Source: Gordonia sp. SL306
GTDB taxonomy: Bacteria; Actinomycetota; Actinomycetes; Mycobacteriales; Mycobacteriaceae
Direction of reading: 5' to 3'
Assembly (NCBI RefSeq): GCF_026625785.1
Contig: NZ_CP113063.1
Location: 930,001 to 994,000, forward strand
Length of the DNA stretch: 64,000 bases
Both the position numbers and the translations under genes were made by a program. Under the pieces are notes generated by a model. The model saw nothing but the letters and a program-made list of their open reading frames with translations. It searched no databases and was not told the origin of the DNA. This document shows positions 1 through 64,000 of the stretch, in pieces (within the stretch, counting starts at the first letter, position 1; every line of letters begins with the position of its first letter).

Positions 1-3000
1 CGATGCCGGTCGATGAGCTCGGCGAGCTCGTCGCCGCCGAACACCCCCGCCGGGCTGACGACGAGCTCGGCACCCGTGCACAGCGCCATCAGGATCTCGA
101 AGATGGACGCGTCGAAACTCGGCGACGCTACGTGCAGCACCCGGGAGCGCTGGTCGAGGCGCAGGATCTTCTGCTGATTCGCCACCACGTTCGCGAGCCC
201 GACATGACTGAGCGCGGCCGCCTTCGGGCGTCCGGTGGAACCGGAGGTGTAGATCAGGTATGCGAGGTCGTCCACGCGCGGGGCACGCCGGAGCTCGCCC
301 GTGTGCAGGCGCGCACCGCTGTGACCGGCCAGTTGTAGCTCCACCGCTGCGTCGTCGACCTCCAGCCAGGAGACACCCTCGGGTGCCTTGCCCCGGACGG
401 CGGTCGACGTCAGTCCGAGGGCAGCGCCGCTGTCCGAGAGGATCTCCGCGAGCCGTGACGGCGGATGGCCGGGGTCGATGCTCACGAACGCGGCTCCCGA
501 CTTGACCACCGCGACCATCGCGAGCACCGAGAGATGCGAACGCGGGATGCAGATGGCGACCAGGTCACCCGGGCCGAGACCACGGGCGACCAGTTCCCGC
601 GCGAGTTGGTTCGACACCACTTCCATGGTCGACCACGTGATGGTGGACGTGCCGCTGATCGCGACCGCCGCCGGATTCGCGTGCACCACTCCGGCGACCA
701 GCAGGTCGCGCAGCGTCTCCGGCATCACCCGCGATTCCGGAGGTGCGATCAGCGCCGCCCGCTCCTCACCTGCCACGAGATCGATCGTGCCGACGGGCCG
801 GGCAGGCGATTCGATCATCGTCCACAGGACCGTGACGAGTTGCGTCGCGACCCGCTCGATCGTCCGGTGGTCGAAAATGTCGGCAGCATAGGCGAACTCC
901 ACGTCCAGACCCGTTCCGCCGACCTGATCGGTGACCGTGACGGAGAGATCGAACTTGGCGGCGGGCACCCGAGCGTCGAGCATCTCGGCCGACTCGACCC
1001 AGTCCCCGAGCGCCGTCGCCTGCCCCGGATGCATCGTCAGCGCCACCTGGAACAACGGGGTGTGGGCCGCCGATCGTTCGGGGGCAACGGCTTCCACGAC
1101 CCGCTCGAACGGGATGGACGAGTGCCGCATCGCCCGCGTACGGGTGGTGTGCGCCCGGTCGAGCAGCTCGGCGGTCGTGTCCTCCGGGCGCATCGATGTC
1201 CGCAGCACCACGGTGTTGACGAACATGCCGACCAGGTCGGCGGTCGCGGGCTCGTCGCGACCGGCGACGGCCGTCCCGATCGCCACCTCGTCCACCTCGG
1301 CCCACCTCGCGAGCAACACCGCGAACGCGGTGTGCACCACGGAGAACGGGGTGACGTTGTGATCCCTGGCGAGTGAGCGGATACCGGCCGCGAGGTCGGC
1401 GTCGAACACCGTGTCGACGTATCCGCCGTTACCCGTCGCGACGTGTGGCCGCGGATGGTCGGTCGGCAATGGCAGGAAGCCCGGGAGTCCGGAGAGTTCC
1501 TCCTCCCAGAAGGCCAGACCCTCCCGGGCGAGGGGGGTCGGGTTCTCCGGGTCACCGAGGAGCCGGTGCTGCCAGATCGCGAAGTCGGCGTACTGCACCG
1601 TCAGCGGCGGCAATGCCGGCCTGCCGCCGGAGCGCCGCGCGCTGTAGGCCACGAAGAGATCGCGGATGAGCGGCACCAACGAGAATCCGTCGCCTGCGAT
1701 GTGGTGGAGCACCACCACCACGACGTACCCGGTCTGATCGCGGAGAATCCTCGCGCGGAACGGGATGTCGTGCGCCAGGTCGAATCCTCGGGCCGCCTCC
1801 GCGGCGACCGTCTCGTCGACCCCCTCGTCGACGACCGCGACCTCGATGTCCAGAAAGCCCATCGCCTCGGCTCGCGACAAGATCTCCTGCACGGGCTCGC
1901 CGCCCACAGACGCAAACCTGGTGCGCAGGGTCTCATGGCGATCGACCAGGTCACCGAGTGCTCCTTGCAGAGCAGCGACGTCGACCTCGGTCCCGAGCCG
2001 GACAGCGCCGGGCATGTTGTAGGTGCTCGCCACCGGATCCATCCGGTTCACGAACCACAGCCGGGTCTGGGAGTGCGACAGCGGAATCGTGTCGGGACGC
2101 TGCTCGACCCGGGTCAGTTCGGGACGGCCATCGGCCCCGCCCCGCCGTGAACGCTCCGCGACCTCGCCGACGTCGACCGAGGTGAACACGTCGGTGAGAT
2201 CGATCCGCACGTTGTGTTCGACCCGTGCCCTCGACACCAGGCGTGCGGCCATCAGCGAATCACCACCGAGCGCGAAGATGTTGTCGCGCAATCCGACACG
2301 TTCGACGCTCAGGAGTTCCCCGATCAGCGATGCCAGCGTGTGCTCCACCGGCGTGCGGGGCGCCTCGTAGGCGATCACCGGACGCAGGTCCGGCGCAGGC
2401 AGTTGCTTACGATCGAGTTTGCCGGTGGCGTTGATCGGGAACTGATCGAGCAGCACCGCCGCCGACGGGACCATGTGCGACGGCAGGTGACGACGGCACC
2501 AGGACAGTGCGGCGGCCTCGCTGACCGAATCGTCGTCGGACCGCAGATACGCCACCAGGACCGGCCCCGGCGCCAGGTCGGTGCGCGGCACCACCGCGGT
2601 GGCATCCACTCCCGGCATGCTGTCGAGCACCGACTCGATCTCACCGGGTTCGATCCGCTGCCCGCGGATCTTGACCTGGAAGTCGGTACGCCCGAGGTAA
2701 TGCAGCTGGCCATCGGGGCTCCAGCGAACCAGGTCACCGGTGCGGTACATCCGGGAACCTCTCGGGCCCAGATGATTTGCGACGAAGCGGTCAGCGGTCA
2801 GGTCCGACCGACCGACGTAGCCGTCGGCGAGCTGACATCCCGCGAGATAGAGTTCCCCCGCGACACCGGCGGGAACGGGCCGCAGGCGGGTGTCGAGGAC
2901 ATAGACGTCGGTGTTCGCCACCGGCCTGCCGATCGGCACCGGGCCGTCGTCGGCGACCACCCGATACTCGGTGACGTCGATCGCGGCCTCGGTCGGACCA

Positions 3001-5297
3001 TAGAGATTGACCAGTTCGGCCGACGAACCCTCCAGCACGCGGTCGGCGAGGAGTCGCGGCAGCGCCTCGCCGGAGGTGAAGACCCGCCGGACGGTTGGCG
3101 GCAGCAGGGTGAGATGCCCGTCGTTCTGCAGGACCTCGGTGTAGACGTCGAGCATCGACGGCACGAAGTGCAGGACGTTCACCTGCTCCTCGGTGATCAG
3201 GTCGAGAAGGTATTCCGGATCGCGGTGCCCGTCCGGCCGGGCGATGACCATCTGCGCTCCCTGGGCCAACGGCCACAGCAGCTCCCAGACGGAGACGTCG
3301 AAGGTGAACGGCGTCTTGTACAGCACCTTGTCGCCGGCGGCCAACGGGTAGTTGTCCTGCATCCAGGCGAGCCGGTTGTGCACCGCTGCGTGCGACACCT
3401 GCACGCCCTTGGGCGTTCCGGTCGACCCCGAGGTGAACAGGACGTAGGCGGCCTCGCTGCCGCCACCCGTCACACCGGCCGGGGCGAGCTCGGCGAGGGC
3501 CGCGGGATTGTTCGCGGCGGTGTCGAATCCGATGGAACCGAGCAGTGCGGCGTCGACGATCAGATGGGCGGCGACGGTCTCGGCGATGAGACGGCGTCGC
3601 TCCTGCGGCTGCGCGGGATCGACGGGGACATAGGCCGCGCCGACGGAGAGTGTCGCGTAGATGGCGGCGACCTGTGCGATACCGCGGTCGAGGGCCACCA
3701 CCACGTGGTCGCCACGGCCGATACCCGAATTGACCAGGTGCGCTGCGATGAGAGTCCGGAGGCGATCGAACTGGGCGTAGGTCCAGCGTCGTCCTCCGGA
3801 CTCGATGGCGACGTCGTCGCCCCGGTCACGAACCCGCTGCCCGAAAGCGGCGAGCAGGTGCGCATCGGGATCCGGTGGTGTGGCCTGCGGTCCGACGCCG
3901 AGACCGACCATCTCCTCGCGCTCACCGTCGAGCAGCAGATCGACGTCGCCGATCAGCAGGTCCATCTCGGAGAAGATGCGGTCGAGGAAGGCCAGGAAGC
4001 GCTGGAGGTGCCCCTCGAGTTCGACGGCCGAGTAGAGATTCGGATTGCCGTGGAAGTCGACCACCAGCCGGGCGCCAGGGCTGGCCTGATAGACGTTCAG
4101 CCGCAGATCCTCCAGGATCCCCGATGAGAGGATCTGGTAATCAACTGTGGCGCCGGTCAATTCGATCGGCTTGTCGAAGAACATCAGATTGATGATCGGG
4201 CCGAACGACGCGGTGTTCGCATCCTGCAGTCCTGCGTCGATGCGGATGTCCTCGAACCGGTAGCGCTGGTGGCGGAGGGCGCCGGTCAGCTCGAGTTGGA
4301 CCTGTTCGATCAGCCCGCGCATCGTCAGCCGTGAGGCGTCGCGGACCCGGACCGGCAGCATGTTGGCGAGCATTCCGCTGGCGCGCTTGATCTTTGCCGT
4401 CGCCCGACCGGTCACGGGAAGGCTCAGCACCACGTCGTCGGTGCCGGCCATCCGGGCCAGGTAGGCGGAGAAGCCCGCGGTGAGGAGCACCGCCGCCGAC
4501 GTGTTGGCCTCGGCTGCCACACGGTCGAGATCGGACTGCTGGGATGCGCTCAGCTGCGACCCGGCGACCAGGTTGCGTGGCGACAGCTCCGCGGCCACCG
4601 ATCGATGGGCGAGGGTGACGCGCTCGGGCAGATCCCGGACCCGCTCGATCCAGTACTCGCGGTCGGCCTCCCGGCGGGTGCCGGCGATGTACTTCTTGTC
4701 GTCCTCGACGAGTTCGGCGAGTGACGCGCCCCGGTTCGACACGTAGTCCGAGCCCGAGACAGCCGCGTTGTACCTCGTCACCACCTCGAGCACGCCGGTC
4801 AGGCCGGCATAACCGTCCATCGCGATGTGGTGGGCCCGCACATACCAGAAAGAACGGTCGTCGGCGACCCTGATGAGCGTCGACACGACCAGATGGTCAC
4901 GTCGCAGATCCATGTGTTGCTGATAGTCGTCATTCATCCATCGCAGCGCCGCACCGACGGGATCCGCATGGTCGCGGAAATCGAGGAAATCGAGATCGTT
5001 GTCGAGTCCTTGATCGACGATCTGCATCGGTACGCCGTTGACTTCCACGATCCGAGTGAAGGCAGACTCGCGTTCATGCGCATTTTCGACGACCGCCTCT
5101 CGGAAGAGATCGCGATCGAGTGGTCGGTCTTTGTCCCGGATATCGAGATACTGAGCAACGGTAACGGAATAGTCGGCCGAAAGATTTTCGGCAAACCACA
5201 TCCCGCGCTGCGCTGCGGTCAGCGCGAAGGGGACCAGTTCTGCCCCGCTCTCGGTGTCTGTCTCAGTGGCATCATGGGTGTTCTCGACCGAACCCAT
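1..5297 (-). CDS. Nonribosomal peptide synthetase, 5' part (C-A-T-C-A, runs off left edge)
   Basis: This is the N-terminal part of a cytosolic multimodular NRPS; about 1765 residues are visible and the 3' end lies outside the window. The start is the ATG at 5295-5297, preceded by a strong GAAAGAGGGG ribosome site. A short acidic linker of about 22 residues leads into C1, which opens with [14 protein letters not shown] and carries HHIAMDG near 4811-4836. A1 follows (about 3865-2410; A10 lysine in NATGKLDRK), then a carrier domain with LGGDSL near 2246-2275. C2 starts near 2095 with HHIAGDG near 1688-1709, and A2 is cut by the edge just after [10 protein letters not shown]. My reading of the A1 pocket is DVWHFSLID plus K, a serine code. 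C1 resembles the EntF/DhbF type that accepts an aryl or acyl starter; that is family inference. The gene is divergent from the ABC exporter, and its link to the giant NRPS is unproven. Confidence 0.96.
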
Positions 5298-8752: not shown

Positions 8753-9094
8753 TCAGCCGACCGAGCGCAACATCCCGTAGCCGTCCCCGACGTCCCGGGC
8801 GAGCCACTCCACCACCTGCCCCACCGCAGTGGAGACCGCCGACGGCTCGTCGAGCGACCCGATCCGCGGCAGGCAGTGCAGGATCGCCGCGACAAGTGAC
8901 GAGCCGACGCCGAGCCCGTTGCTCTCGGCAACGAGGTCGTAGCGCGTGAGGGCGCCGGCCAGATCCTGGTAGGTGGCCGAGTCACCGCTGTGTCGGACCG
9001 CGGTCAGGCCAGGGGTGACCTCGGCGCGGCGATGGACTTCGTCGCACGTCGCCCTCAATCGCGGGAAGTCCCACGATCCCATGTCACCATCCAT
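8753..9094 (-). CDS. Small stand-alone adenylation-domain-like protein (113 aa), function unknown
   Basis: This is the last gene of the minus-strand NRPS operon, 196 bp after the mbtH-like gene. Residues about 14-98 follow the pattern of the first part of an NRPS adenylation domain: VTPGLTAV, then TYQDLAGAL, then GLGVGSSLV, then LPRIGSLDE, ending in a helix-like AVGQVVEWLARDVG. No ATP-binding motif (TSGSTG), substrate pocket or A10 lysine is present, so it cannot activate an amino acid. The same pattern, with matching spacing, occurs at the C-terminus of the right-edge NRPS and at the N-terminus of the giant NRPS. I infer a docking, chaperone or regulatory role for the NRPS line. The start is ambiguous between ATG 9094 and ATG 9082; GGAG and AGGA elements lie upstream. 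No signal peptide or membrane segment is seen. Confidence 0.72.
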   Translation of the reverse strand: MDGDMGSWDFPRLRATCDEVHRRAEVTPGLTAVRHSGDSATYQDLAGALTRYDLVAESNGLGVGSSLVAAILHCLPRIGSLDEPSAVSTAVGQVVEWLARDVGDGYGMLRSVG

Positions 9095-9290: not shown

Positions 9291-9512
9291 TCAGCCTGCC
9301 CGGTCCGCCTCCATCGCGTCGATCAGGCTCTTCGGCCGCAGATCGGTCCAGTTCTGCTCGACGTACTCCAGGCACGCCGCACGGTCGTCCTCGCCGAAGA
9401 CCTTGGTCCAGCCGGCCGGGATGTCGGCGAACGTCGGCCACAGCGAATGCTGGTTCTCCTCGTTCACCAGCACGAAGAATCGGCCGTTCTCGTCATCGAA
9501 GGGATTGGTCAT
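9291..9512 (-). CDS. mbtH: MbtH-like protein (73 aa)
   Basis: MbtH-like proteins are small cytosolic partners that bind NRPS adenylation domains and are needed for their folding or activity. The family pattern is complete: [19 protein letters not shown], then [15 protein letters not shown], then [17 protein letters not shown]. Length is normal for the family. I chose the ATG at 9512 because GAGAGGA lies about ten bases upstream and because MTNPFDD is the family N-terminus; the reading frame stays open further upstream but that part is not conserved. It follows the giant NRPS by 96 bp on the same strand and so very probably serves its A domains, although it could also serve the left NRPS. The symbol is a family name; it does not imply mycobactin synthesis. 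Confidence 0.97.
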
Positions 9513-9608: not shown

Positions 9609-58625
<49,017 letters not shown>

Positions 58626-58628
<3 letters not shown>

Positions 58629-58641
58629 TTTCCAATTCCGG
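58626..58641 (-). other. Seven-base insertion causing frameshift in A2
   Basis: On the minus strand the sequence reads CCGGAATTGGAAACTG. Sister modules imply CCG-GAA-CTG (Pro-Glu-Leu), so seven bases such as TTGGAAA are extra. GGAA is repeated on both sides of TT, as in an imperfect tandem duplication. Frame before: codons start at positions divisible by 3; frame after: shifted by one. Confidence 0.85.
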
Positions 58642-61149
58642 TCGGGCGGCATAGCCCCGGGCCAGTTGGATCCCGCCGACGTAGAGTTCGCCGGCAGCGC
58701 CTCTGGGTACGGGGTGCAGCCGTGCGTCGAGCACGTGCGCGGTCGAGTTCCACACCGGGACACCGATCGGCACCGATCCGAGCGACGGGTCCACATCGTC
58801 GATCTGCTGATAGGTGATCTCCACCGCGGCCTCGGTCGGGCCGTAGAGGTTGTAGAACAGCACCTCCGGCAACAACTGCCGCGTCTCGGCCGCCACGGCA
58901 GGCGGGAGCGCTTCACCTGTGGTGGACACGATGCGCAGCGAATCGAGCGACCGAATCCGTTCCGGACCGGCGACCTCGAGGAACACCGACAACATCGACG
59001 GGACAAAGTGCACCATGGTCGCCCGGTGCGCCGCGATCTGCTCGGCCACGTAGACCGGATCGAGATGACCGTCGGCGTCGAGCACCAGCAACCGGGCGCC
59101 GACCATCAACGGCGCGAACAACTCGGCCACCGAACAGTCGAAGGTGACCGGCGTCTTCAGCACAACGGTGTCGGACGAGTCGATCGGCAATTCGTCCAGG
59201 CCCCACCGCATCCGGTTGACCACGGCGTCGTGCGACACGGTCACGCCCTTCGGCCGTCCGGTCGATCCGGACGTGAAGATCGTGTAGGCCGCGTGGTCCG
59301 GGCGCAGAGGCGCGCGCCGCTCGTCGTCGCGCACGGGCGTGTCGTCGCCGACGACCGCCGAATCACATTCGACGACAACGATGTCCGCACCGGCCTCGAC
59401 GACGGATCCCGGCGGGATACCCGGGCCGACGATGACGATCCCGGCGCCTGCGGTGTCGAGCATGTACCGGACCCGGTCCACCGGGGCGGCGACGTCGATC
59501 GGCACATATTGCCCACCGGCCGCGACCACGGCGTGAATGGCCACCACCATCTCCACCGAGCGCGGGACGCACACGCCGACGGCGACATCAGGGCCGACCC
59601 CGCGTCGGATGAGATCCCTTGCCAGGACGTTGATCCGGGACGCGAGCTCGCCGTAGGTCAGGGTGCGTTCGTCGGACACCAGGGCCGGCAGATCGGGGGT
59701 CGTCACGGCCTGTCGGGCCACCGCGTCCGCGATCGTCTCGGTGCGCACCGGCACCATCGCTCCGGCGGAGAGCTCTCGGCGGCGCTCGATGTCGGCCGCG
59801 CCCAGAACCTCGAGGTCGCCCATCGCACGATCGGGTTCGACGACGACCTGCCGGATGATCCGCTCGAAGATCGCAACGAACTCGACGACCGTCGCGCGGT
59901 CGAAGAGGTCGGTCGCGTACTCGATGACACCGGAGAGGGCCTGACCGCCATCGCCGCTCTCGATCAGGGTGATCGCGAGATCGTGATCGGTCAGATCGCG
60001 GTACTGCTCGACCAATTCCGCTGTGACGCCAGGCAGGTCGAACCGCGCGCCCTGTGCGTCCTGGAGAAGTAGCAACACCTGGAAGATCGGTGAATGTGCG
60101 GTGCTGCGGGTCGGCTGCAGCTTGTCGACGATCATGTCGAACGGGATGTCGGCGTTGCCCAGCGCCGCCAGATCCCGATCACGGACATCTCCGAGCAGCT
60201 CCCCGAAGCCGCGTGCCGGATCGACGGGGGTACGCAACACGACCGTGTTCATGAACATGCCGACGAGGTGTTCGAGCGCACGCTCGCCACGGCCGGCGTA
60301 GGGGGTGCCGACCACTACGTCGCGGTCACCGGTCAGGCGGTGCAGCACCAGCACCCAGGCGGCGTGCAACACCATGAACAGCGACGCGTTGTGCGTGTGC
60401 GCGAACTGCCGGATGGCGGCGAACAGTTCGTCGTCGATCTCGAAGGTCACGGCGTCGGCGTGATTGCCCTGCACCGGCGGTCGGGGCCGGTCGGTGGGCA
60501 ACGCGATCAGTTCCGGCGCGCCGTCGAGATCCTGCTCCCAGAAGGTGAGTTGTTGTGCGGCAAGCGAATCGGGCGCGTCGGGGTCACCGAGGACGTGACG
60601 CTGCCAGACGGTGTAATCGGCGTACTGGACGTCGAGTCGCGGTCGGTCGGGGTCGCTCTCGCCTCGGCGGGCGACGTAGGAGGCCACCAGGTCCTGTGCC
60701 AGCGGGGTGAGTGACGCGCCGTCGCTGATGACATGGTGGGCGACGAGCGCGAAGACGAACTCGTCGTCGGCGGTCTGGAACAGTCGTGCGCGGATCGGGG
60801 GTGCCGTCTCGAGGTCGAAACCGACGCCGATCACGCCGGCGAGGGCTGCGTCGACAGCGGCCGGGTCGTCGGCCGGGATGCGGATCGCCGGAGTGATCTG
60901 GAGATCGGGGCGGTAGCTCCCCTCGCCGAGTACATCCTGTTCGGGCACACCGTCGGTCGACGGGAAGCGGGTGCGCAGGATCTCGTGCCGGCCGAGGAGG
61001 TCACGGACGGCGCCGTCGAGCGCCGACGGATCGAGATCTCCACCGAACCTGAGCACCAGCGGGATGTTGTAGACGTGGCTGCCCGGATCGAGGGTGGCCA
61101 GGAACCAGATTCGCCGCTGCGCATACGACAGCGGGATCGGCGACGGCCG

Positions 61150-62955
61150 CTCGGTCGCGACGAGCTCGGGTCGGTGGACGTGCTTGCGACCGGCCACCCG
61201 CGCGGCGAGTTCGCGCACCGTGGGTGCTTCGAAGATGTCCCGGACCGACACCACCAGGTCGAGATCGTCCTTGCACCTCGCGGCGATCTGCGCGGCCACC
61301 AGGGAATTGCCGCCGATGCCGAACAACGACTCGACGACGCTGATCCGATCGACGTCGAGGACGGCCTCGAACACCGTGGCGATCTGACGTTCCGCCTCGT
61401 CGCGCGGCGGCACGTACACCATCGCGCTCACCGGCGTCGGCACCGGGAGCGCCTTGCGATCGAGCTTCCCGTTGACGTTCAGCGGCAATTGGTCGAGGAC
61501 CATCACAACGTCGGGAACCATGTAGTCGGGGACCCGGGTCGCGACGGCGGACCGGATCTCGGCGTGATCCAGATCGCCGCCGTCGGCACCGTTGCCGACC
61601 ACGTAGCCGACCATCTGCTCGGGCTGGTCGTTGCGTCGTTTGATCGCGGCGGCCGCGGCATCGACGCCGGGCACGGCCAGGAGCGCGGCCTCCACCTCAC
61701 CGAGCTCGATGCGGTATCCCCGGAGTTTCACCTGGGCGTCGCTGCGACCGATGTACTCCATCCCTCCGCCGCGGGAGATCACCACGTCGCCGGTGCGGTA
61801 CATGCGCGCGCCCGGCTCGAACGGGTCTGCGACGAAGCGGGTTGCGGTCAGATCGAATCGGCCGAGATATCCGCGGGTCACCTGTCCGCCGGCGATGTAG
61901 AGCTCGCCCGCCACGCCCTCGGGCACCCGGGCGAGGCGCTGGTCGAGAATGTATGCCCGACTGCTCTCGATGGCCGCGCCGATCTCCGATGCGACGGTGT
62001 CCGCGACGAAATCGACGGTGAGCTCTCGCCTGGTCACATAGACGGTGGCCTCGGTGGGTCCGTACATGTTGTGCAGCGACGGTCCGGAGTTGCCGTCGGC
62101 CTCCAGCCGGTCGTCGTGCCATCGCCGCACCTGACCGAAATCGAGTGCCTCGCCGGCGAAGATCATGTGGCGGATCGACTGTGGGAGGCGATCTCCGGCC
62201 GGGGGCCGGACGGCCGCGGCCAGTTGATAGAACGCCGACGGGGTGAGGTGGACGACGGTGACCTGTTCGCGTTCGAGGACCTCGACGAAGTCGGCGGGTG
62301 ACCGGGTGGTGATGTAGTCGAGCACCACCAGGCGACCGCCAAAGCTCAGCGACACCCAGATCTCGCCGACCGAGACGTCGAAGGCATACGACTGGAACAT
62401 CGTCCACACGTCGTCGCACGACAGGTCGTAGGTCTCGCCGACCGACCGCAGCAGTGTGACCACGTCGTCGTGGGTGACCACCACGCCCTTGGGCTTGCCC
62501 GTCGAGCCGGAGGTGTACATCACGTATGCGGGATGGGCCCCGTTGATGCGCTGCGGGATGCGATCGACACCGTGATCGCTGCCGGCATCGGCAACCGTGG
62601 ACAGGGACACGTCGAGGGCCTGCCAGGTCTCGATGGTTTCGTCGTCGGCCAGTACCAGCAACGGCCCGGCGTCATCGATGATCGTCTGGAGTCGTTCGAG
62701 CGGATGCGACCGGTCGAGCGGCAGGTAGGCCGCACCCGACTTGATCACGCCGAGCAACACGACGATCAGTTCTGCCGATCTCGGCATCGCGACACCGATC
62801 AGGACCTCGGGACCGGCGCCAGACGCGATGAGCCCGGCGGCCAGCCGGTCCGAACGCTCGTCGAGTTCCCGGTATGTCAGCGCCGCGCCGTCGAGGTCGA
62901 CGACGGCGGTGCGGTCGGCGAATCGATGAGCGGACGAACGGAACAGACCCGGGAG
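61150..62955 (-). other. Giant NRPS module 1: A1-T1 (loading from split module)
   Basis: There is no C domain on this protein before A1. A1 belongs to a different lineage from most others here, with LTPSAFYQL and HNMYGPTEATVYV, features shared with threonine-type A domains. My manual pocket reading is DVGHIAMVY plus K, which I cannot assign. T1 reads LFGIGGNSLVAAQ. Confidence 0.85.
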
Positions 62956-63299
62956 CGAGCCCCAATCCGAGGAGCCCGACATCTCGAACGCGGTGGAACG
63001 GACGTGGTCGACGACCCGATTCGCCTCCGCGGCGATCTCACCGGCCGCCAGCCCGGCCTTCGGGATCAGGCCGGTCACGGTACCCACCACCGCCGACTCG
63101 GCGTCGAGCCCGCTTGCGGCGAGCACGCTCGCGGTGGCGGCGACCTGCGCCTGGAGCGCACCGAAGGTGACGGGGCCTGCCGCACCGCTGAACGCGGTCT
63201 GCTCCGGCGCCATGGCAGCCGCCATGGCGATCAGGTGCAGGGTGGATGGCCGGGGACCCCATCCGGAGGAGAGGTTCCACTGGCCGTGGTCGGGGGCCG

Positions 63300-64000
63300 T
63301 CACGCGCGATCGGCGCCTCTCACGGGGACCTCGCCGCTCACCGGGACAACCGTGCCGTCGACCGTCTGGGCGCCGGGGGCGTCCCGATGGCCGACGACCT
63401 CGGCCGCCCGAAGCCGCAGTTCTCGAACCACGGAGTCGAGGGCGTCGGGACCGGACGTGACCAGGTCCGGGACGCTGCTCATCAACGCCATCGTGAGGCC
63501 TGCGTTCGAATCGTCGGCGGGCAGCCCGGCCGACATGGCGGTCTTGATCGCATCCAGGTCGCCGAAGCCCATGATGAATCCGTTCCGTTCGACCGCCGTG
63601 GCCGTCGGCTCCGTCGCGGCGGCCCGGGTCACGAGATCTGCCAGGGCGACCGCGTCCTGCGCGGTGCTGGTGGCTTCATCGGCGAGATCGAGCACAATGT
63701 CTCCCACGATACAAGTCGTGTCGTCGGCGACCGCCTCGAGCACCCGGACATACCAGCCGGCGATCCGCTCCACCGTGCTCGCGTCGAAAAGATCCGTTGC
63801 GTAGAGCAACTGGGCCTTGATGGCACCGTCGGACGTCTGACCGGCCGGATCGTTCGGGAAGAGCGTGAGCTGCAGGTCGACCTTCGCCGAGGAGAGCTGC
63901 TCGTCCTCCGGCGAGATCCGCAGGCCCTCGAGTTCCAGCGTGGGGAACTCGATGTTCTGGAACGCGAACATGACCTGGAACAACGGGTTGTAGGAGGTGG
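63300..64000 (-). CDS. Upstream nonribosomal peptide synthetase, 3' end (C domain plus docking-like tail)
   Basis: Only the last 232 codons are in the window; the 5' part lies beyond the right edge. It starts within the C-terminal half of a C domain (TSYNPLFQVMFAFQNIE, then AKVDLQLTLF, then YATDLFDASTVERIAGW). After the C domain comes a segment at about 63677-63420 patterned like the beginning of an A domain (ADLVTRAAATEPTATAV, then FGDLDAI, then SVPDLVTSG), followed by a loose tail ending in RGADRA. No A motif, carrier or TE follows. The stop overlaps the start of the giant NRPS by four bases (GTGA). This C domain must therefore work with A1-T1 of the next protein, so one module is shared between two polypeptides. 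Confidence 0.93.
   Translation of the reverse strand, partial: TSYNPLFQVMFAFQNIEFPTLELEGLRISPEDEQLSSAKVDLQLTLFPNDPAGQTSDGAIKAQLLYATDLFDASTVERIAGWYVRVLEAVADDTTCIVGDIVLDLADEATSTAQDAVALADLVTRAAATEPTATAVERNGFIMGFGDLDAIKTAMSAGLPADDSNAGLTMALMSSVPDLVTSGPDALDSVVRELRLRAAEVVGHRDAPGAQTVDGTVVPVSGEVPVRGADRA

Follow-up and report, generated by a model that had tools for sequence, protein, structure and literature searches.

Homologous domains with an adenylation-like first half face each other at split C|A junctions of NRPSs in Gordonia and related genera

The C-terminus of one non-ribosomal peptide synthetase (NRPS1), the N-terminus of the giant NRPS that follows it (NRPS2) and a stand-alone 113-aa protein of Gordonia sp. 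SL306 are homologous members of a single domain family, as confirmed by profile comparison. We name this domain of ~85 residues psiA and refer to its copies as the tail (NRPS1 C-terminus), the head (NRPS2 N-terminus) and the free protein (113 aa). Our best explanation, to which we give a probability of roughly 0.58, is that the tail and head would form a new docking pair that bridges a split within a module, to which the free protein is added as a third subunit. In the mechanism we propose, psiA would be a small non-catalytic domain taken from the N-terminal part of an adenylation (A) domain, with a helical second half of its own. The tail, after a complete condensation (C) domain, would bind the head, before a complete A domain, and so hold together a module spread over two proteins. 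A third paralogue, whose gene is usually next to that of MbtH, would join the assembly as a free subunit in Gordonia, Williamsia and Jongsikchunia, and its conserved C-terminal peptide might provide an extra contact.

Results

The window, by which we mean the whole 64,000-nucleotide stretch that was analysed, covers bases 930001–994000 of a 5.36 Mb genome in a single contig. Its minus strand encodes, in the direction of transcription, the end of NRPS1, the giant NRPS2, an MbtH-like gene and the 113-aa gene. Copies of psiA were located with A6, an 89-position profile built with the window's own tail and head (tailB and headB) and without any free copy or system-A copy. The end of the NRPS1 C domain (63693..63995, running past the window; Pfam Condensation, E 5e-9, to position 445 of 456) is followed by the tail at 63393..63656 (A6 E 1.8e-21, positions 3–89 of 89) and ~30 more residues; NRPS1 as a whole has 2700 aa and starts at genome position 1001402. 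The NRPS1 stop and NRPS2 start overlap by 4 nt (GTGA, 63300..63303; TGA at 63300–63302, GTG at 63301–63303). The head occupies 62977..63249 (A6 E 1e-17, positions 5–88 of 89) and precedes the start of a complete A domain at 62806..62943, which continues to lower coordinates and matches AMP-binding from profile position 1 (residues 121–166 of a 168-aa piece containing the head). NRPS2 (9609..63303) is open in two frames, 57991–63303 and 9609–59006, and this change of frame near 58–59 kb (57991–59006) is either a sequencing error or a real break; the counterpart in another Gordonia genome, G013, is a single open frame of 17,953 aa. The MbtH-like gene (9291..9512, Pfam MbtH E 2.8e-29) adjoins the free gene at 8753..9094, whose reading frame is as the initial annotation gave it and whose named relatives are Gordonia hypothetical proteins.

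A complete paralogous NRPS system adjoins this one on the left (genome 901473–935297). It consists of an NRPS1 of 2693 aa, the N-terminal part of which lies at 3..5297 of the window on the minus strand, an NRPS2 of 8313 aa, a ~102-aa free protein and MbtH, and its own psiA copies are at genome positions 927300–927551 (tail), 926893–927162 (head) and 901476–901769 (free). Between the two systems, identity is 39% for the free copies (E 5e-17), 47% for the tails and 45% for the heads. When A6 was run over the minus strand of genome positions 886000–1023999, matches extended into the second half of the profile (ending at 78–89 of 89) at six places only, namely the tail, head and free copies of the two systems; all other matches were A domains and ended at positions 55–65.

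The initial annotation had read one shared adenylation-like segment into the three places, and profile comparison bears this out. Class profiles were built from Gordonia copies alone (61 tails, 61 heads and 65 free copies, with the type-2 copies described below kept separate), and matched each other at E 2e-11 for tail–head (87 columns), 1.5e-11 for tail–free (73 columns) and 1e-7 for head–free (91 columns). The scores of 48–66 are far above a best score of 17.6 among 40 column shuffles per pair and 8–23 for reversed controls. Plain BLASTP among the window's own copies is weak (tailB–freeB E 0.11, tailB–headB 1.2, freeB–headB 0.012).

The same annotation took the segment for the first part of an A domain, which holds for about the first 55 residues and fails for the second half. 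Against the A-domain starts of the Gordonia NRPSs themselves, the three class profiles score E 1.4e-8, 7.6e-10 and 2e-8 over 46–58 columns, and the first halves alone match A domains at E 7.3e-9 to 3.3e-11. These first halves are no closer to each other than to A domains (tail–head 4.3e-11 vs. tail–A 3.3e-11; head–free 1.4e-4 vs. free–A 7.3e-9). The second halves match one another (tail–free 4.5e-8, tail–head 2.8e-4, head–free 4.3e-4) and show no match to the second halves of A domains (E 0.054–0.44). In solved structures, A6 positions ~2–63 match A domains and related acyl-CoA ligases, among them LgrA at positions 8–56 (E 3e-12 for the whole chain). Searches of Pfam returned no family for the free protein at E up to 10, and none on psiA for the tails and heads of ten proteins at E up to 0.01. 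With the limit relaxed to E 10, the piece containing the head gives two AMP-binding stretches, and NCBIfam ligase models fall on its residues 23–69 (E 6e-4), in line with an A-like first half. Since A domains match the first half only and the second halves match each other, psiA is a domain in its own right; its first half descends from the start of an A domain and its second half is psiA's own. The free protein accordingly differs from A domains and other ANL enzymes (PF00501) both in lacking a Pfam match and in its second half.

AlphaFold gives the free protein a confident fold (pLDDT 86.9, pTM 0.79), with a predicted helix at residues 10–26, strands at 31–35 and 38–41, and helices at 42–58, 63–74 and 84–101. 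A model of tail and head together, made through the read-through stop of Rhodococcus phenolicus, shows the same order of elements, with block pLDDT of 83–94 for the tail and mostly 64–90 for the head. The alignment folded (A13) combined 10 read-through rows and 18 tail rows, so that heads are backed by 10 rows; three mixed alignments (A10, A11 and A12) were kept out of the folding, as they placed tails on heads or the reverse. The initial annotation had counted on confident interface predictions for support. None emerged: the read-through model has an overall pTM of 0.37, with no confident interface and no confident domain arrangement.

Disorder is predicted for the final five residues of the free protein. 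An LR(A/S)V-type ending (8756–8770, minus strand; LRSVG in the window copy) is nevertheless kept, as a loose pattern, in 41 of 48 free sequences, and conservation of an ending predicted to be disordered suggests a short, putative binding peptide. The free gene is under purifying selection, with dN/dS of 0.08–0.45 over the 15 pairs of six copies.

Among 59 Gordonia genomes, tail and head were each found in 56 and the free protein in 55; absence of the 113-aa gene from orthologous clusters, which would have refuted the initial annotation, was not seen. Both tail and free protein occur in 54 genomes, two genomes lack tail, head and free protein alike, one fragmented assembly has a free copy only, and two have tail and head with no free match. 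Of the last two, G035 has no free copy within 143000–202999 and an NRPS2 split over several frames, and G002 has no free match in a 60 kb stretch that ends before the end of NRPS2. G002 also has a second head-like match inside a Gordonia NRPS (G002:C1:634288-654577, frame residues 5938–6039, E 1e-7).

MbtH lies beside the free gene in 30 of the 31 Gordonia loci read (of 67 matches); a contig end truncates the 31st. A free gene shares the contig with 47 of the 63 strong tails, and for 44 of these 47 type-1 tails it is downstream on the same strand, 25.5–101.5 kb away. A four-base overlap between the stop and its nearest start codon was seen at 55 of 74 junctions. Six genomes (G000, G013, G018, G041, G042 and G050) combine two strong tails with two free copies, another six (G009, G010, G025, G030, G034 and G054) have two free matches with one strong tail, and G007 has two strong tails with one free match. 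Two free-type genes lie close together within one genome at L198 (G030) and L201 (G009).

At one locus of G025 (L213, G025:C1:718279-718662), a B-type free gene and MbtH persist without the B NRPS, with ribosomal protein genes ~9 kb away; the free genes of G025 and G054 have a pairwise dN/dS of 0.125. We considered a fused B-type NRPS that had kept its free copy and rejected it, as the stretch read holds ribosomal protein genes and no NRPS upstream.

Thirteen Gordonia genomes additionally have a type-2 junction, in which tail and head are weaker and for which no free copy of its own was found in those genomes. The profile of type-2 tails shows no match to the free profile (E 0.12) and barely matches that of type-2 heads (0.0013).

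Beyond Gordonia, searches of the family, order and class scored at most 13–21 candidates per genome, and the threshold of the family search with the tail profile (E 1e-4) admits real A domains. The tail profile matched at E 1e-4 or better in at least 154 of 251 family genomes and at least 22 of 31 genera, the weak matches including true A domains. Among the matches listed for 348 genomes of the order and 394 of the class, whole-domain matches (ending at A6 positions 83–89) were confined to the family. Twenty further stretches picked from the matches comprise 13 tail/head junctions, in which the tail ends 3–63 residues before the stop and the head precedes an A domain, six single psiA copies internal to a long open NRPS frame, and one standalone pair.

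A collection of 47 named loci from Rhodococcus, Rhodococcoides, Prescottella, Antrihabitans and Nocardia adds to these, and in 46 of them a tail lies opposite a head across a split C|A boundary. The recurrence at other C|A junctions that had been proposed as support was thus found, in several genera. Five tails and five heads were placed between complete domains (Pfam C to position 452–455 of 456, AMP-binding from position 1). In total, 133 junctions were extracted from 145 loci; seven of the other 12 are fused or standalone cases.

Several NRPSs are fused and carry an internal psiA between C and A (G067, G171, L261, L263–L266 and L270). Both G067 and G171 have an internal copy ahead of the third A domain, and G067 has another ahead of the fifth. 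Chains of ~11,300 aa with two internal psiA copies each were seen in G067 (L217–L219) and G080 (L263 and L264). Williamsia-type genomes follow this pattern: the NRPS is fused, psiA is kept between C and A, and the relative of the tail is a separate protein. Gene order in G067 and G171 is tail-type protein, MbtH, free-type protein and fused NRPS with internal psiA, with a second free copy after the NRPS in G067; in G073 the tail-type and free-type genes precede the NRPS and the internal psiA lies ~10 kb further on.

Free-type proteins outside Gordonia, in frames of 117–420 aa, were detected in 19 of 251 family genomes, belonging to four genera. Named relatives of four of these proteins come from Williamsia and Jongsikchunia, which are probably the genera concerned. 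No match to a free-type protein was found in the other genera of the 251 genomes, including most genera with split junctions. In a tree of 80 sequences and 97 columns, in which many forks are poorly resolved, the free class forms a single group (100/100), and the free protein is a clade-specific added member of the psiA family. Standalone tail-type proteins of other genera group weakly with Gordonia NRPS1 tails (81/85). Rhodococcus-type heads group, also weakly, with Rhodococcus-type tails and not with Gordonia heads, so a single ancient split into tails and heads is not borne out.

Discussion

Because tail and head are homologous and sit on facing ends of a split C|A boundary, they are best explained as a docking pair, and tail–head docking is likely given their homology, position and recurrence. 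The analysis shows that the three are homologous, where they sit and how they recur, that the free gene is under purifying selection, and what fold is predicted; contact between tail and head, and membership of the free protein in that complex, we infer. The interpretation in the initial annotation is partly supported: tail and head do recur facing each other, but some fused NRPSs carry psiA in-chain, so that docking is only part of the picture, and no free-type protein was detected in most genera with split junctions. Over 133 junctions (127 distinct), the partial correlation of distances is 0.42 for tail–head, 0.34 for C–head, 0.03 for C–A and 0.00 for tail–A. Tail and head distances thus agree beyond what their neighbours account for, which favours docking; the C–head value lies near the tail–head value and counts against it. 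Residue couplings were set aside as a sign of contact. The top couplings were inter-protein in 36 of 89 cases for tail–head, 37 of 91 for C–A, 49 of 91 for C–head and 47 of 89 for tail–A (0–1 with shuffled pairings), so that control pairs were equally coupled, which reflects shared history and not contact. The grouping of standalone tail-type proteins with NRPS1 tails, an element fused here and free there, lends docking weak support.

That tail and head are functionless leftovers of A domains, decayed after gene fission or recombination, is very improbable: the A-derived first half fits such an origin, but a common second half missing from A domains, recurrence across several genera, a confident predicted fold and purifying selection on the free copy do not. 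An unlikely but more substantial alternative makes psiA an assembly or recruitment platform on the C–A linker, which would bring in MbtH, a tailoring enzyme or a further copy of an NRPS, with bridging as a secondary role. The presence of internal psiA in fused NRPSs does imply a role beyond the bridging of breaks, and the single copies between C and A (in G067, G171 and six further stretches), the tail-type and free-type proteins that remain separate subunits even where the NRPS is fused, and the MbtH neighbourhood all suit a platform. However, no recruited partner is known, and a pure recruitment site would have no need of psiA on both ends of split junctions (46 of 47). Under the docking explanation, the internal psiA of a fused NRPS may hold C and A in a given arrangement, and the standalone tail-type protein of such systems may stand in for a fused tail.

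Within its clade, the free class goes with the type-1 system, which favours a third subunit, as does the presence of one free copy per tail in the six two-system genomes. Uneven numbers of tail and free copies, the orphan copy in G025 and the lack of free matches in most other genera with split junctions count against this role, and type-2 junctions without a free copy of their own count against the explanation as a whole; the uneven copy numbers, together with a tail/head split that the tree leaves open, slightly lower its odds. Some of the same observations would suit a free protein that acts as assembly chaperone, competitor or regulator of tail and head and is not a stoichiometric subunit. 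Its gene is separate and far downstream, beside MbtH; the protein was detected in few of the genera with split junctions; free and tail copies do not always agree in number; and G025 keeps an orphan copy. This role is a doubtful one, if a serious contender, and the one-to-one copies of the two-system genomes speak against it. A bolder form of the three-subunit explanation is held tentatively, as somewhat more doubtful than probable: the trio of dead mini-A domains, two fused and one free, would assemble into a hetero-trimer and so restore a module severed between C and A, sister genera would keep the trio with one member in-chain and two separate, and covalent and three-body non-covalent junctions would interconvert in evolution.

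A docking pair, to our knowledge, is generally expected only where chains are split, and internal copies in fused NRPSs depart from that expectation; the complementary elements that end one subunit and open the next (46 of 47 named loci) agree with what is general to docking pairs. In the accessible part of one review (PMC9113145), the docking classes restricted to NRPSs are COM (helix-hand) and PAX (three-helix bundles to which the N-terminal partner gives one helix and the C-terminal partner two), described as short elements, helical or of the helix-hand type, that sit at E/C or PCP/C junctions; β-hairpin docking domains are common to NRPSs and hybrids. As far as that part goes, psiA resembles COM and PAX in that consecutive NRPS subunits carry complementary elements, one at a C-terminus and one at an N-terminus. 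It differs in being a folded domain of ~85 residues and A-domain descent at an intramodular C|A split, in the mutual homology of tail and head, and in having a third, free paralogue. Instead of the E/C junction of COM, psiA marks a C|A junction with a complete C before and a complete A after (five of each), and instead of the three-helix bundle of PAX, each psiA is predicted to run helix-strand-strand-helix-helix-helix. Split-module docking is described there for trans-AT PKSs, which is also intramodular, but the junctions are those of PKSs (KS/KR, KS/DH and the like) and the elements are others. The same part of PMC9113145 contains no docking class of the psiA form and none for a C|A split; the accessible part of a Rhodococcus survey (PMC5550956) does not use the word 'docking'; and titles and abstract openings in the open-licence literature yielded no description of the domain. 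MbtH-like proteins, too, are small accessory proteins of NRPSs, and their genes adjoin that of the free psiA protein, but they are the product of a separate gene and belong to a separate Pfam family.

If the docking explanation is true, a folded docking domain at the cut between C and A would offer engineers a new site at which to cut and join NRPSs, and pieces of A domains would have been reused as structural parts. It would also shed light on how very long split assembly lines operate in Rhodococcus, Gordonia and their relatives, and would give the recurring 'hypothetical protein' beside MbtH in Gordonia a testable role.
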